In this document: in pieces, positions 33,157 to 50,948 of the stretch
How the letters are laid out: each line of letters opens with the position of its first letter
Position numbering within the stretch: the stretch's first letter is position 1
From: a virus
IMG/VR virus record: IMGVR_UViG_3300025640_000003
Coordinates: 1 to 55,283 of that record
Length of the DNA: 55,283 nt
Reading direction: 5' to 3' (one strand)
The notes under the pieces: model-generated
What the model saw: the letters and a program-made list of their open reading frames with translations, nothing else
Database searches by the model: none
Told to the model about the DNA's origin: nothing
Made by a program: the position numbers and the translations under genes

Positions 33157-35739
33157 TTAGTATCCCATAATTTTGTCAGCGGGCTGAAACTTACTATTTT
33201 GTCCTGTAGGGTCGTAGTCAAAAAGATTACTCTTAGGACGACTCATTAGGCCATATCTAAGGGCGTCATAAAGGTGATCTTCTGATTTTGTGTCTACGTC
33301 TTCAGGGTTGTTTTTATCGAGAGGTAGGGCAGGTAGTTGAGAGATAAGGTTACGACAAGTATTAAAGATCACCATCCTAGGTTCTTCTGTGTACTCATCT
33401 ACCTGAAGTCTCCTGTGTACTTCGTTCTTACCAGCAACACGAGAGCCTCTAGAGCGATCCGCAGGTCTCCAACGACAACCACGCATGATCATCTGTTCTG
33501 CCAGTGAAGGTCCTGTATCACCTCGATTGTGCCACAGAGAAGAGTCAAGAACACCGTAGCGCATTTTTTCCCCTGACTCTACTTCAAGGATCATGTCAGC
33601 TAAGTCTACTGCCGTAACCCTGTGAGTATACATCTCCCTGTATACAACCAATTGTTCTGTATGGGGTACAACAGCAAACCAAAGCACACCAGAATGAGAA
33701 CCGTAACCGTAGTCAGCAGCTCTAAACTTTGTCCAGCTAGAGGGGATGTCAAAAGGTTCTACTGTATGTATTGCAGAACTAAACTCAGAAAAGGCAGCAC
33801 CCTCAGATACGCTCCAGTCACCTTCAAGCAGTTGCCTACGTTGGTGTTCTGGGAGAGAAAGAAGGTTTGCCTCATACATCCCGTCATCAGAAAGGTGCGG
33901 GTTATCAAAGAGGGTAGCAGGAATAAACCTACGCTTAAAGAGTGGCTCACCTGCACGACTATGTCCTTTAGGCCAGCAGATAGTTTCCCCTGAGTCAATA
34001 TCGGTAGCCCAGAAAGATTCATTATAAGGTGCAGGGTCTACGAAAGTTTTTTTAACCCACGAGTGCCCACTACCGCCGGGGTTAGATGTAGCTCTTTGAT
34101 AAAGGTCTAGACCAGAACCTTTAGCAGTACGTAGACGAGACCTCATATAGTTCCAAGCAAAAGGTGTAGGCCATTGAGTCAGTTCGTCAAAACCAATCCA
34201 ACAGTTCTTATTGACAAGCCCAGACTCTGTGATATAATTATTAGATAAGTTTACAGTTAAATCATACACACTAGAAAGGGGTTCAGACAATGGCTCAACA
34301 CGAACAATGCATAATTCCAAAGGAACTTTTAATTCGCGCTGCTCTTCAGTATAGGGGTGGGTATACTTCTCAACGAGGTAACGGTTACATTCGGGAGTAC
34401 AACCCATTTCATCCAAACGGGGATCGTAGGGGCCTTGTACTTCAGCATCGACTTGTGATGGAGAGACATCTTGATCGGATACTGGACTCGAAAGAAGTGG
34501 TTCATCACATTGACAACTGCAAGAGTAATAACAACCTTGAGAACCTTCAACTTTTTGCATCCCAATCTGAACATTTGAAACATCACCACAAGACTGATGG
34601 GAACACAAAGAGGTATGACCCTCATTTTGTAGAAAAAGTCCGTCAAGCTGCAGAGGACCCAGAGGTCTCTTTAAAGTCTCTGTATGCAAGCCCTCAGACT
34701 GTCCTTGATGTTTGCAAGCTGCACGACATTGAGTGGAAGCATGGCCTTCACTTGACTGAAGAGGAGGTACGAAACGCACTGCAGGGTAGAACAACCCGAG
34801 AGGCTGCTGAGATTCTTGGATGTCATCCTCAGACACTCTACAACCGTTTTGACCATCTTCTTGAGAAAAGAAAGGCTCCGGGTTTTCTTGATTCTCAGAT
34901 TGAAGCTGTTTATAAGAAAGCCACTGAAGAGGGTATCTGTGAAACTGCGAGATACTTTGAGACAAATCGGATAACTGTTGGTAAGGCTTTGAAGAAAGCA
35001 AACCTATGGGATGACTATCAGGCTGTATCTGCTCAGATAAAAGGTGGCCGTCAGAGGAAAAAACAGAGACCTTAACACACTTCTTTTTTAGTTTTTCAGA
35101 TTTCCATAAGATTTGTTGAGGGCCTTCAAGTGTCTGTACAGACTCCCCCACTTGGAGGTCTTCAATCTTTTTTAGGTTGTTGTCACCAACTCGTACTTTA
35201 GTACCTTCAGCTACACAAAAAGCCTGACCTTGGTAACGAGAAACATCATCGTCCCTATCTAGGTAAGATAACCAGAGAGTTGCACCAGAAGGAGCCACCC
35301 AAGTTTTGTCTCTTTCAAGAAATTTAATACCCGGAATAGCTTTAGGGTAAAGTTGTTTGCTTACTGAGATAAGCTCTCTAAGTTCTTCTGTAGACCTGCG
35401 AACAAGCAACATTTTAGCTAGAGGATTATTAAAGTAACGCACTGGGTCAGCCAACATTGCGTAGCTTTTACCACCGCCAGCTGCTCCGCCATAGAGGACT
35501 TCTTGCTCACTTGAACTTAGAAAGTCTGTTTGAGGTCCGGGGTTAGGTTGGAAAATAACTTCTTGAGCTTTCTCCACACTAATTGGCACCGGGAGTGACT
35601 CAGCTGGAGTCTTTAGGCTCTCTGACTTTTCTACCACCGAGTCTGGCTTCTTCGAGCTTTTTGGCTTTTTCGAGGGCTTCTTTGTACCTTTCGGCAAGGA
35701 ACCTTTGATTTGAAGCTTCTGTCTGACGTCGTTCTTCAA
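33157..35739 (-). CDS. terL: Terminase large subunit interrupted by an intein
   Basis: 860-aa precursor. The N-extein has Walker A GGAAGGGKS (84-92). The C-extein begins with Cys513 and has Walker B WIGFDEL, then RNase H-like nuclease acidic residues in AADYGYG, GVLDSS and DHLYDALRY. Between them, residues 175-512 are an intein, so the mature packaging motor would be 522 aa. The listed start is TTG 35739, overlapping the previous gene by about 140 bases. GTG at 35637 is an alternative, since the Lys/Ser/Pro-rich first 34 residues look unlike a conserved domain. Confidence 0.92.
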   Translation of the reverse strand: MKNDVRQKLQIKGSLPKGTKKPSKKPKSSKKPDSVVEKSESLKTPAESLPVPISVEKAQEVIFQPNPGPQTDFLSSSEQEVLYGGAAGGGKSYAMLADPVRYFNNPLAKMLLVRRSTEELRELISVSKQLYPKAIPGIKFLERDKTWVAPSGATLWLSYLDRDDDVSRYQGQAFCVAEGTKVRVGDNNLKKIEDLQVGESVQTLEGPQQILWKSEKLKKKCVKVSVFSSDGHLLSEQIQPDSHPIGLLSSKPYQQLSDLSQSISQFHRYPLQWLSYKQLQSENQENPEPFFSQEDGQNGCRVSEDDIQESQQPLGLFYPAVRFVPPLQSSEGHASTQCRAACKHQGQSEGLHTETLKRPLGPLQLDGLFLQNEGHTSLCSHQSCGDVSNVQIGMQKVEGSQGCYYSCSCQCDEPLLSSPVSDQDVSPSQVDAEVQGPYDPRLDEMGCTPECNRYLVEKYTHPYTEEQRELKVPLELCIVRVEPLSEPLSSVYDLTVNLSNNYITESGLVNKNCWIGFDELTQWPTPFAWNYMRSRLRTAKGSGLDLYQRATSNPGGSGHSWVKKTFVDPAPYNESFWATDIDSGETICWPKGHSRAGEPLFKRRFIPATLFDNPHLSDDGMYEANLLSLPEHQRRQLLEGDWSVSEGAAFSEFSSAIHTVEPFDIPSSWTKFRAADYGYGSHSGVLWFAVVPHTEQLVVYREMYTHRVTAVDLADMILEVESGEKMRYGVLDSSLWHNRGDTGPSLAEQMIMRGCRWRPADRSRGSRVAGKNEVHRRLQVDEYTEEPRMVIFNTCRNLISQLPALPLDKNNPEDVDTKSEDHLYDALRYGLMSRPKSNLFDYDPTGQNSKFQPADKIMGY
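34211..34238 (+). promoter_or_regulatory. Consensus promoter for the antisense HNH gene
   Basis: TTGACA at 34211-34216 and TATAAT at 34233-34238, spaced 16 bases, 51 bases before the HNH ATG. The same bases, read on the minus strand, encode the intein end NYITESGLVN. A ribosome site AAAGGGG (34275-34281) follows eight bases before the ATG. A perfect two-box match inside constrained codons is unlikely by chance. Confidence 0.8.
34290..35075 (+). CDS. HNH homing endonuclease encoded antisense within the terminase intein
   Basis: 261 aa. The core is RRGLVLQHRLVMERHL (H53), then EVVHHIDNCKSNNNLENLQLF (H72, H73, D75, N82, N85) and SEHLKHH, a standard HNH_3 homing nuclease. The C-terminal half has two helix-turn-helix-like segments (TREAAEILGCHPQTLYNRF and ICETARYFETNRITVGKAL) for DNA recognition. 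It lies wholly inside the intein on the opposite strand. Its last about 27 codons are antisense to intein block B and its first ones to the beginning of Hint-C. It should cut intein-free terminase genes to drive homing (inference). Confidence 0.9.
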   Translation: MAQHEQCIIPKELLIRAALQYRGGYTSQRGNGYIREYNPFHPNGDRRGLVLQHRLVMERHLDRILDSKEVVHHIDNCKSNNNLENLQLFASQSEHLKHHHKTDGNTKRYDPHFVEKVRQAAEDPEVSLKSLYASPQTVLDVCKLHDIEWKHGLHLTEEEVRNALQGRTTREAAEILGCHPQTLYNRFDHLLEKRKAPGFLDSQIEAVYKKATEEGICETARYFETNRITVGKALKKANLWDDYQAVSAQIKGGRQRKKQRP

Positions 35740-37611: not shown

Positions 37612-38246
37612 TTCTTAGTGCCTTTTTGAGTAGGTTTCATGGATGCACCACAGTTAGCTTTAACCATGCCGCCTTTAGCGTAGCCACGAGCAGCAGAACC
37701 ACCGGGACGAGTACGACGAGAGGTTGTAGTGTTACCAGAAGTACCCTCAAGCATTTTTCGAGCCGCGCCACGGTTATTTGGCAAGCCCAGCTCTCTGCGT
37801 TGTGCAGGTGACATTCTTGCCCAATCTTCAAGAGTTACATCTTTTAGATTTCTAGGTGTTGCAGGGCTATTGTTAGGCCGTGAAGTTGGACCTGAAGAAG
37901 ACCTTGAAGTCCGACTTGCACCGGGTGCGTTACGAGGGCGTGAAGTTGGGCCTGAAGAAGTTGTTGAAGTTCTACTTGCACCCGGTGCGTTACGAGGGCG
38001 TGAAGTTGGGCCCTTACGAGAGTTATTCTCATCTTCACCGCGTTGAATAGCACGTTGGGCACGAGTTACAACTTCATCCCGAGCACGAGGTCTTTCAGAG
38101 GTTCTAGGTGCCTGACGAGTCCCTGTCTCTTCTTTGTAGTTAGTTGAATAGGAGTTACCCTTCCAAGTAAAAGTTTTACCTTTACCTTTTTCTTTTCGAG
38201 CAGCAGCAAATGCCTTACCAAAGCTCATATCGTCATATCCAGCCAT
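37608..38246 (-). CDS. Disordered basic protein with SRPRNAPGASRTS repeats, 212 aa
   Basis: The N-terminus MSFGKAFAAARKEKGKGKTFTWKG is found at the start of many marine phage proteins, and the C-terminus (GGMVKANCGASMKPTQKG) is also typical. The centre holds three tandem copies of a 16-residue GPTSRPRNAPGASRTS-type repeat. The chain is Arg/Ser/Pro-rich and probably unfolded, perhaps packaged with DNA. Overlaps the next gene by four bases. Confidence 0.78.
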   Translation of the reverse strand: MAGYDDMSFGKAFAAARKEKGKGKTFTWKGNSYSTNYKEETGTRQAPRTSERPRARDEVVTRAQRAIQRGEDENNSRKGPTSRPRNAPGASRTSTTSSGPTSRPRNAPGASRTSRSSSGPTSRPNNSPATPRNLKDVTLEDWARMSPAQRRELGLPNNRGAARKMLEGTSGNTTTSRRTRPGGSAARGYAKGGMVKANCGASMKPTQKGTKK

Positions 38247-45900: not shown

Positions 45901-46431
45901 ATGATTGTTTCAGGTTATAAGATTGAGCCTAATGCTCACCTTAGGGGTGCTGAACTTAGGTATGCTCACCTTAGGGGTGCTGAACTTAGGTATGCTAACC
46001 TTAGGGGTGCTAACCTTAGGGATGCTAACCTTAGGGATGCTGACATTAGGGATGCTGACCTTAGGTATGCTGACCTTAGGGATGCTGACCTTAGGTATGC
46101 TGACCTTAGGGGTGCTAGACTCCCACACTTTCAAATTTGCCCTCAGGAGGGTTCTTTCTGTGGGTATAAGAAAACCACCTTAGGTGTCGTAAGATTACTT
46201 ATCCCAAAAGGTGCAAAAAGGACTAACAGTCTTGTGGGTCGTAAGTGTAGGGCCTCTGAGGTTTTTGTGTTGGATGGGGAAGGTTTAGGGGGTACAGGCA
46301 CTCACTACTCTGGTATTACCTATGACAGAGGATTTATACTCTGTAAAACCTATGATGGGGACATTCGTGTGGAGTGTACCCAAGGTATCCACTTCTTTAT
46401 GACCCGTGAAGAAGCCGAAGAGTGGTCTTAA
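45901..46431 (+). CDS. Pentapeptide-repeat protein with C-terminal DUF5758-like domain
   Basis: 176 aa. Residues about 12-70 are tandem A(D/N/H)LRx repeats that form a right-handed beta-helix. The rest (VVRLLIPKGAKR, GRKCRASEVFVLD, VECTQGIHFFMTREEAEEW) matches the DUF5758 domain often fused to such repeats. Pentapeptide proteins can mimic DNA and inhibit gyrase or restriction, so an anti-host role is possible. At DNA level 15-base units repeat almost exactly (45931-46115), allowing length change. ATG 45901 fits the repeated ribosome-site cassette better than ATG 45877. Confidence 0.85.
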   Translation: MIVSGYKIEPNAHLRGAELRYAHLRGAELRYANLRGANLRDANLRDADIRDADLRYADLRDADLRYADLRGARLPHFQICPQEGSFCGYKKTTLGVVRLLIPKGAKRTNSLVGRKCRASEVFVLDGEGLGGTGTHYSGITYDRGFILCKTYDGDIRVECTQGIHFFMTREEAEEWS

Positions 46432-46870: not shown

Positions 46871-47308
46871 ATGATCACTTATGAGCTTTTGGAGTCTCGT
46901 GGTGCTTGTGAGGGCCAAGTCAAGTTGTTTCGTGATACATTCCCAGAGGGTGTGGAGGTTTCAGTCGATCTTTGTGTAAAGTATGCAAGTAGGTTTGATT
47001 TTAACTGGGCTGGGTATGAATTACTGAAAGATACTGAGGCTTATAGGGATGCTAGGGCACCCTTGTGGAAGGCTTATGAGGATGCTAAGGCACCCTTGTG
47101 GAAGGCTTATGAGGATGCTAAGGCACCCTTGTGGAAGGCTTATGAGGATGCTGAGGCACCCTTGTGGAAGGCTTATGAGGATGCTGAGGCACCCTTGTGG
47201 AAGGCTTATGAGGATGCTAGGGCACCCTTGTTGAAGGCTTATAGGGAGGGTCTTGCAAAGGTTTTTGCTGAAATGTATCTAGAGGAGAATAGTTATGATC
47301 AAGTATGA
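46871..47308 (+). CDS. Tandem-repeat protein (APLWKAYEDAx), 145 aa
   Basis: Residues about 62-124 consist of five near-identical 11-residue units APLWKAYEDA(K/E/R) and a sixth diverged one. An 11-residue period suits a right-handed helical or coiled-coil rod, with Trp and Tyr at fixed places. The N-terminal 60 residues are a small non-repetitive domain (MITYELLESRGACEGQVKLF). It may act as a binding rod or mimic; function unknown. Confidence 0.75.
   Translation: MITYELLESRGACEGQVKLFRDTFPEGVEVSVDLCVKYASRFDFNWAGYELLKDTEAYRDARAPLWKAYEDAKAPLWKAYEDAKAPLWKAYEDAEAPLWKAYEDAEAPLWKAYEDARAPLLKAYREGLAKVFAEMYLEENSYDQV
47057..47242 (+). repeat. 33-bp tandem repeats within the gene at 46871
   Basis: Five full 33-bp units starting GCACCCTTGTGGAAGGC at 47057, 47090, 47123, 47156 and 47189, nearly identical at DNA level, plus a partial unit at 47222-47242. 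The low divergence implies recent expansion and probable copy-number variation. Confidence 0.9.
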
Positions 47309-48766: not shown

Positions 48767-48900
48767 TGGACTTTGCAGAATACATAGAGTACATCAACAG
48801 TCTAACAGCACAGTGTATCCTTGATGTAGAATTTTGGGATGAAGTAGGCTCACACCTTGAGGGTTGCTGGGATACAATAGAAAGGAACAAAGACCAATGA
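48766..48900 (+). CDS. Hypothetical small acidic protein, 44 aa
   Basis: GTG 48766 overlaps the previous stop, and TGA 48898-48900 overlaps the rIIA-like ATG at 48897. Acidic helical protein (DFAEYIEYINSLTAQCILDV). Coupling at both ends argues that it is translated. Confidence 0.5.
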   Translation: MDFAEYIEYINSLTAQCILDVEFWDEVGSHLEGCWDTIERNKDQ

Positions 48901-50948
48901 TTAGTAATAAAACACAACGAGAAGTTGCATCTAACTCCGCAAACACAAAAGAGTTTAGCATCCAGAACTCCTCGAAGATGTTTCAAATGATCATCTCTGG
49001 GTTGTACTCAGATAAACCACAAAGTATCACTCGTGAAATCTGGGCCAATGCTTTCGATGCACACTGCATGGTGGGTACACCTGATAAGCCCTTTGAGATC
49101 ACCTTCCCATCTTCACTAACACCAACCTTTACTTGTCGTGACTTCGGGCCGGGTATCCACCATGATGACATGGAAGGTTTCTATACTGTTCTGGGTCACT
49201 CCACCAAAGAGGACACCAATGATGCAGTGGGTAAGTGGGGTGTGGGCCGTATGTCCCCTATGAGCTACACAGACAGCTTCTCAGTGACATCTTACCACAA
49301 AGGTATGGTAGGGTACTACAGCGTACAGCTTGGCCCTGACGGTGCCCCACAGCTTCACACAATGGTACCTCCATCCCCTACTGACAAACCGGATGGTCTT
49401 GAGGTTAGCTTCCCTGTACAACGTAAAGACATTGGGCTGTTTGCAGAAGCAGCTAAACGTGTGTCACTTGGTTTTGATATTAAGCCAGTGGTTCGGGGTC
49501 AACCTGACTTTGTGTGGCCAGAGATTGAGAAGTATTTTGAAGGTGACGGTTGGTATGCCTTTAGAAGCACTTACAAATCACCTCACCGTGGTACCTACGC
49601 TAAGATGGGCTGCGTCCTCTACCCGATTGACGTTGATACCATTAGAGGCTCCCTAACTCACGCCCAGTTAAAACTAATACGTTCTTGTAACTTTGTCATA
49701 GACTTTGATATTGGTGATCTTGAAGTTACAGCATCTCGTGAGGGGTTGTCGTATGGTCGCCTTGACCCCACCACAGACTCTATCAGAAAGAAGTTGGAGT
49801 GTATCTTAGGTAACATCAAAGATGTTGTGGAGGAAGCTATCAAAGAGTCCCCAACTTACTTCGATGCCCTTATCAAGAAGAACCAAACCAACATGTTCCC
49901 TAGTGGTACTATAGGTGACGTGTCTTGGCGTGGTGAGGTCCTGTCCCTACTCTCAGTCCTTACTGACGACATTAAAGCCTACAAGGGTTCCTACAAGAGT
50001 TCCTACGAGTTCCGTCGCCAAAGGTCCAAGGTCGGCTTCACGAGTAGTTTAACTGTTAGCTCTTCAACCCACGGTATCTACATTAGTGTCGTCGGTGGTA
50101 AAGAGCATGATGTACGTTCTGGTGAGCGTATTGCCAGTCACTATCATGGTTCTGGTAGTGGAAAAGACACCCTCTGGTTCAAGGTTGAGAGTCAGACTGA
50201 GGCTACCACCCTGCTGGGGCTTCTTAAGGCTCGTCTGGGTGACACACACACTTACACCCTAGTTAAAGATATACCCGACACAGGGCCTAGGGTTGGTACA
50301 CGTACTAAGACTAAGCTTAAGAGTCATAATATTGGTTCCCGTGGGACTTGGGGTGACTACACAATGGAGAGTGAGGAGTTTGACAAAGGTGGAGTTTACC
50401 TACCTATAATTAACAACAGCCCACTTGAGGGTAAGCACTTATATGGTGTTGTAGCTAAGTACCTAAAGCAAGCTAAGGTTATCACCAGTGACCACTTGAT
50501 TGTTGTACCAAAGACACACTGGAAGAAGTTCGAGGAGGCAACCAACTGGAAACCTTTGTGGGATGTGGCTAATGAGTATAAGATGAAAGGGCTTGCCAAG
50601 AAGAAGTCTTTTGCTATCTCTCAGCTACCACGTAAAGAGAGAGGTTCCGTGGCTCTTGCAGGTCTGTCCGAGCAGAACAGTCTGTTCAAGTCACTAAACT
50701 CTTTGATAACAAGACCAGAGGGCAGGCTCATTGACGGTATGAAAGCAGACGAGATGCACCACCTATTGAGTATTCTTGGTGTTGAACTTCCTAAGTCTTG
50801 CCCAAAAACAAAGGAGTTGATCAGTAAGATACTCACTAAGTACCCACTGCTGGAGTCAGGCCTTTACAGGAATCACATACCAAAACCTTACGTAGACTAT
50901 GTGGCAGGTATTGACCTACTCTCAGCTAAACAAACTATCGCAGCATAA
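48897..50948 (+). CDS. rIIA: rIIA-like GHKL ATPase
   Basis: 683 aa. Bergerat ATP-binding fold: N-box REIWANAFDAH (E47, N51, D54), DFGPG (D82, G84, G86), and the lid GKWGVGRMSPMSY (112-124). This is the pattern of T4 rIIA. With rIIB it guards T4 against the RexAB exclusion system by an unclear membrane-linked mechanism. ATG 48897 is chosen over 48864, which would overlap the 44-aa gene and lacks a ribosome site. rIIB follows ten bases later. Confidence 0.88.
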   Translation: MISNKTQREVASNSANTKEFSIQNSSKMFQMIISGLYSDKPQSITREIWANAFDAHCMVGTPDKPFEITFPSSLTPTFTCRDFGPGIHHDDMEGFYTVLGHSTKEDTNDAVGKWGVGRMSPMSYTDSFSVTSYHKGMVGYYSVQLGPDGAPQLHTMVPPSPTDKPDGLEVSFPVQRKDIGLFAEAAKRVSLGFDIKPVVRGQPDFVWPEIEKYFEGDGWYAFRSTYKSPHRGTYAKMGCVLYPIDVDTIRGSLTHAQLKLIRSCNFVIDFDIGDLEVTASREGLSYGRLDPTTDSIRKKLECILGNIKDVVEEAIKESPTYFDALIKKNQTNMFPSGTIGDVSWRGEVLSLLSVLTDDIKAYKGSYKSSYEFRRQRSKVGFTSSLTVSSSTHGIYISVVGGKEHDVRSGERIASHYHGSGSGKDTLWFKVESQTEATTLLGLLKARLGDTHTYTLVKDIPDTGPRVGTRTKTKLKSHNIGSRGTWGDYTMESEEFDKGGVYLPIINNSPLEGKHLYGVVAKYLKQAKVITSDHLIVVPKTHWKKFEEATNWKPLWDVANEYKMKGLAKKKSFAISQLPRKERGSVALAGLSEQNSLFKSLNSLITRPEGRLIDGMKADEMHHLLSILGVELPKSCPKTKELISKILTKYPLLESGLYRNHIPKPYVDYVAGIDLLSAKQTIAA

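Follow-up and report, generated by a model that had tools for sequence, protein, structure and literature searches.

The large terminase gene (terL) of this marine phage very probably carries a mobile intein whose homing endonuclease is a separate, independently expressed HNH gene, nested in antisense orientation between the N- and C-terminal parts of the HINT splicing domain. The window, meaning here the whole analysed stretch of 55,283 nt, comes from one IMG/VR virus record with kinship to Puniceispirillum phage HMO-2011 and the Roseobacter CRP phages. Because the same locus is repeated in two near-identical IMG/VR contigs, it is no assembly accident of one sample. The features of the locus are listed below in window coordinates.

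33157-35739, minus strand: terL, precursor of the large terminase subunit, 860 aa, interrupted by the intein (tblastn and alignment)
35218-35739 and 33157-34203, minus strand: terL exteins, flanking the intein
34204-35217, minus strand: intein, 338 aa, from C1 to N338, with Cys at +1 (eight empty alleles, AF2, Foldseek, profile match)
34888-35217, minus strand: N-terminal splicing part, intein residues 1-110, with Cys1 and block B His69 (high pLDDT; 28-intein alignment)
34378-34887, minus strand: insert, intein residues 111-280; the intein-frame peptide is mostly disordered and coding constraint lies on the opposite strand (pLDDT, substitutions)
34204-34377, minus strand: C-terminal splicing part, intein residues 281-338, with HPY motif, D319, NHYI block, penultimate Lys and terminal Asn (pLDDT 77-95; alignment)
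34290-35075, plus strand: HNH homing-type endonuclease gene, 261 aa (Pfam HNH_3, PHROG, AF2, conservation in relatives)
34443-34562, plus strand: HNH_3 catalytic domain, HNH residues 52-91 (Pfam)
34767-34853, plus strand: helix-turn-helix domain, probably for target-DNA recognition (Pfam HTH_23, 6.7e-5, just under the cut-off)
34888-35073, both strands: first dual-coding overlap, HNH C-terminus over the intein block B region, residues 49-110 (low, flattened rates at all three codon positions)
34291-34377, both strands: second dual-coding overlap, HNH N-terminus over the intein HPY region, residues 281-309 (flattened rates)
34211-34238, plus strand: sigma-70-type promoter-like site, TTGACA-N16-TATAAT with extended -10, in the last intein codons (12/12 consensus match)
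34275-34281, plus strand: ribosome-binding-like site AAAGGGG, 8 nt 5' of the HNH ATG (sequence)

The best terL match has 78% identity (tblastn; terL of Roseobacter, Puniceispirillum and Pelagibacter phages). Residues 175-512 of the terL product (338 aa) are absent from all eight related terminases that were aligned, including those of Roseobacter phage CRP-13 and HMO-2011, and the insertion point is exact, immediately before the Walker B motif (QGQAF^CWIGFDE). The first-pass annotation had drawn the intein at these residues and made its reading depend on the existence of terminases lacking them; 34204-35217 (-) is exactly the segment missing from the eight relatives, which carry empty sites. 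The terL frame is continuous over its 860 aa, and the host gene is not broken into two ORFs in the manner of split inteins and fractured genes.

On sequence and modelling evidence, the 338-aa segment is an intein with a HINT splicing fold at both ends. Its AlphaFold (AF2) model is confident over residues 1-110 and 281-338 and has pLDDT below 50 over residues 155-279. Foldseek matches this model to the gp41-1 (E 9.5e-5), PI-SceI and Prp8 inteins, at E values of about 1e-4 to 1e-3, and the intein profile matches PI-SceI at 4.7e-6. In an alignment of 28 inteins, Cys1, His69, H287, P288, Y289, D319 and N338 are invariant, and the +1 residue is Ser, Thr or Cys in every intein member compared (55/55). 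The precise insertion absent from relatives and the HINT fold with Cys1, block B His, block F Asp, terminal Asn and +1 Cys/Ser/Thr are those of a class 1 intein. Block B of the window intein reads PxxH instead of TxxH, and 41 of the 55 members have Lys in place of the usual penultimate His. Pfam searches of the intein frame found no endonuclease domain, in agreement with the first-pass annotation, which sets the element apart from inteins with an in-frame endonuclease. Group I introns often house HNH genes, and the insert could on that ground be taken for an intron removed at the RNA level; the HINT fold, Cys1, the terminal Asn, the +1 Cys/Ser/Thr and the open frame across the insert speak against this, as does an Rfam search of the window for an intron, which gave no match, and the idea is barely credible.

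The plus-strand ORF at 34290-35075, judged from sequence and structural modelling, is a genuine gene encoding a homing-type HNH endonuclease, nested in reverse within the intein. It matches Pfam HNH_3 at E=1.9e-7 (above the Pfam cut-off), with additional HTH matches, and many PHROG HNH families, down to 6.7e-18. It has the catalytic His and Asn of the HNH_3 family; in the alignment of relatives, H53, H72, H73, N81, N85 and H95 are invariant or nearly so. The AF2 model of the HNH protein has a mean pLDDT of 91.7, and Foldseek ranks I-HmuI first, with an E value of 0.74. Pfam, PHROG and conservation agree with the plus-strand HNH homing endonuclease proposed by the first-pass annotation, which had also suggested searching the two products separately: residues 175-512 gave PI-SceI/HINT-type matches and the 261-aa protein HNH_3 matches. 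Moreover, diverged carriers of this intein have kept the HNH frame, at 62% and about 40% identity, which the annotation had held necessary.

The two frames lie in a single antisense register in all members, with the first codon positions of both frames paired. When the HNH codons of the window were permuted among synonymous positions (2000 shuffles), a mean of 12.8 antisense stops was expected and none of the shuffles was open (0/2000), compared with no stop observed. The open intein frame across the HNH gene, already pointed out by the first-pass annotation, is therefore not due to chance. Nearly all relatives behave like the window in this test, and HNH relatives outside inteins usually have stops in that antisense register. 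In 30 pairs that are 55-98% identical in the HNH, the differences counted at positions 1/2/3 of its codons are 1866/1465/3377, and over the same bases the intein-frame identity is lower than the HNH-frame identity in every pair (30/30). Differences at intein codon positions 1/2/3 were also taken by segment, from 12 pairs that are not all independent:

intein residues 1-48 (intein only): 0.28/0.20/0.61
intein residues 49-110 (both frames): 0.13/0.31/0.17
intein residues 111-280 (HNH with disordered intein): 0.24/0.46/0.14
intein residues 281-309 (both frames): 0.18/0.26/0.22
intein residues 310-338 (intein only): 0.19/0.12/0.50

In residues 111-280, the second position of the intein codons takes most of the substitutions; it coincides with the wobble position of the HNH codons. 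Three regimes are recognized from these substitution patterns, with the intein frame constrained at the ends, the HNH frame in the middle of the insert, and both frames in the overlaps. By the same measure, the intein and HNH proteins truly share coding sequence at both ends, a point missed by the first-pass annotation. Overlapping antisense ORFs are common artefacts and the intein frame is fully open, so that the HNH ORF might be regarded as a dead relic or as a spurious shadow of a real intein domain. This is highly improbable, given the conserved catalytic residues, the high-confidence fold and an HNH-frame substitution pattern that contradicts a shadow ORF; the peptide that the intein frame encodes here is disordered, and in 30 of 30 pairs it is the less conserved of the two.

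Signals that could drive the HNH gene lie on its own strand. In the 55-kb window, the promoter-like site at 34211-34238 (+) is alone in matching 12/12 at a spacing of 16-18 (synonymous codon resampling, p=0.003), although the block G motif by itself already yields about 9/12 matches. An identical perfect site is present in one relative (L021); elsewhere the site is variable, and it is weak in several GC-rich members. Family-wide promoter statistics give a combined Z of 5.3, a value inflated by relatedness, and a strong promoter is therefore claimed for the window and L021 only. An SD-like core precedes the HNH start in 21 of 35 representatives. A search for intrinsic terminators near the HNH gene gave one candidate in the region, fewer than the shuffle mean. 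Through the promoter-like and ribosome-binding-like sites, the HNH is likely to be expressed independently of the terminase. The first-pass annotation had taken nuclease expression to be uncoupled from that of the terminase; from the signals on the HNH strand we infer the same. The strong promoter-like site is directed against terL, and an antisense transcript acting mainly as a regulatory RNA on terL, with the HNH secondary, could be imagined; strong protein-level constraint on the HNH and the variation of promoter strength among family members make such a role very unlikely. The -35 hexamer sits on the codons of the adjacent Asn, Val and Leu, and the notion that this box requires the penultimate Lys was therefore abandoned. 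At window position 50380 (+), within a large ORF (48864-50948), TTGACA and TATAAT occur together once more, 19 nt apart.

The arrangement extends well beyond this virus. A junction-pattern search returned diverged relatives with the same intein/HNH pair, one of them in a very different terminase. Scanning viral contigs with the HNH alignment gave 80 loci. The register is open in more than 60, and intein junctions within a terminase can be recognized in nearly all of these. To avoid circularity, viral contigs were also scanned independently of the HNH with the intein C-terminal motif alone (the N-terminal alignment is too variable to serve as a query). This second scan gave 71 loci: 67 have an antisense HNH in the same register, two are cut by contig ends and two are HNH-free mini-inteins. 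Both scans combined cover 97 distinct contigs, some of which perhaps represent the same virus from different samples. Further insertion sites are the terminase P-loops (L080, L093, L096) and a large helicase-like protein (L094), and the layout also occurs in a contig of a Phycisphaeraceae MAG (L100). The antisense-HNH intein is, as far as these contig sequences attest, a widespread class with several insertion sites, wider than the first-pass annotation could know. Among several annotated phages with HNH matches, searched for a cultured carrier, the layout was seen in none.

The two mini-inteins, L114 (178 aa) and L144 (147 aa), lack the HNH and have closed antisense frames. They sit at the same terL site and have lost the whole HNH region while keeping the HPY motif; they are possibly useful as compact splicing domains. 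Empty, full and mini terL alleles are thus all present in the HMO-2011-like group, and we interpret them, from sequence, as stages of a homing cycle. In some pairs of members the inteins resemble each other more closely than the exteins do (e.g. 94% vs 79%), a pattern that transfer would produce. A weakly supported tree of the HNH core places the members from P-loop sites together with free-standing HNHs, a hint of more than one origin. Dual coding at the overlaps, stop avoidance, spread over diverse terminases and mini-intein derivatives are documented by these sequence comparisons.

The position of the HNH gene inside terL raises the question of whether the protein is a real nuclease that serves DNA packaging together with the terminase and not homing, all the more since HNH proteins reportedly partner phage packaging machines (work attributed to Kala et al., 2014, cited in PMC10448857). 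Related phages have empty or mini-intein terL without an HNH at this site, nearly every close HNH relative sits within an intein, the protein carries HTH DNA-binding domains, and its closest solved relative by sequence and fold is, weakly, I-HmuI. Altogether, a packaging role is unlikely, and the mobile intein with a nested homing gene is preferred. In the mechanism proposed for it, the terminase mRNA would be translated straight through, with the antisense-derived middle as a loop that is long and disordered. The HINT domain, whose splicing residues are intact, would excise itself and restore the terminase. The HNH would be made from its own promoter in the intein C-terminal codons and its own ribosome-binding site, and would cut intein-free terL near the Walker B codons in co-infected cells, where repair would copy the element in. 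Splicing and homing of the window element are what knowledge of these families leads one to expect. It is also conceivable, at slightly less than even chances, that inteins with antisense-nested homing genes make up a major and long-lived class in phage terminases. The promoter of the nuclease gene would then have its -35 and -10 boxes in the codons of the essential C-terminal splice motif, an arrangement that would tie splicing and homing to one piece of DNA although the two are expressed at different times.

Known systems share parts of this layout. Dassa et al. are said to have described, in 2009, split inteins of 'fractured genes', and the nearest intein N-terminal similarity among annotated phages is to the uvsX split inteins of Yersinia phage TG1 and Vibrio phage EniLVp02. 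These likewise have a separate homing gene between the intein halves, but on the same strand and with the host gene split in two, whereas the window gene is antisense and its intein frame whole. The TerL inteins of mycobacteriophages contain the endonuclease as one of their domains, and they are inserted in TerL ATPase motifs, with Walker B as one known site (PMC5050341). The window element resembles these and PI-SceI in its HINT domain, its insertion in a TerL ATPase motif and an endonuclease between the two halves; it differs in that the endonuclease is an HNH, encoded separately on the opposite strand and outside the intein protein. In the ShiLan insertion, an HNH is concealed on the same strand but in a different frame, and there is no splicing domain (PMC11855218). 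Shared with it are an HNH gene over an open host frame without stops, a disjunct distribution and a distantly related HNH; the ShiLan type is same-strand (as in phage Mantra), non-splicing and without an intein, while the window HNH is on the opposite strand with a HINT domain. Some nuclear group I introns are known to house an antisense homing gene that is expressed and active (Didymium L2066 / I-DsqI; PMC9548176). They, too, are self-splicing elements with an antisense homing endonuclease gene; L2066 is, however, an RNA intron in rDNA, so that dual protein coding is unneeded. No report of an intein with an antisense homing gene was found in the literature searched, which largely excluded subscription papers and preprints. 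The intein and the HNH homing gene are of known kinds; their widespread dual-coding antisense arrangement may be new, and the remark of the first-pass annotation that this is no standard intein architecture accords with that literature.

Beside in-frame fusion and gene fracture, the layout represents a third way to pair a homing nuclease with an intein, and it indicates how a free-standing homing gene can enter an intein with the host protein unbroken, provided that the antisense frame stays open. Its many natural examples of protein coding on both strands allow the constraint on either frame to be followed by segment. With empty, full and mini alleles in one phage group, the uncoupled nuclease also allows a direct test of how inteins gain, time and lose endonucleases. 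Annotation pipelines will usually overlook the nuclease, and the terminase may seem fused to a meaningless low-complexity insert.

Other terminases of the set show further interruptions. A 1010-aa terminase ORF (L142, on the same contig as L030) has a second intein, located in the nuclease domain; the +1 frame of the same strand matches HNH there, and inteins may hide homing genes on both strands. An anti-strand ORF of 1459 aa (L026) is a terminase apparently with four inteins, only one of which has an antisense HNH, and the terminases of L025, L038 and L061 also look multiply interrupted. Elsewhere in the window are tandem repeats (15, 33 and 60 bp, each a multiple of three), at 45932-46116, 47037-47242 and 37875-38012; they overlap or adjoin predicted ORFs.
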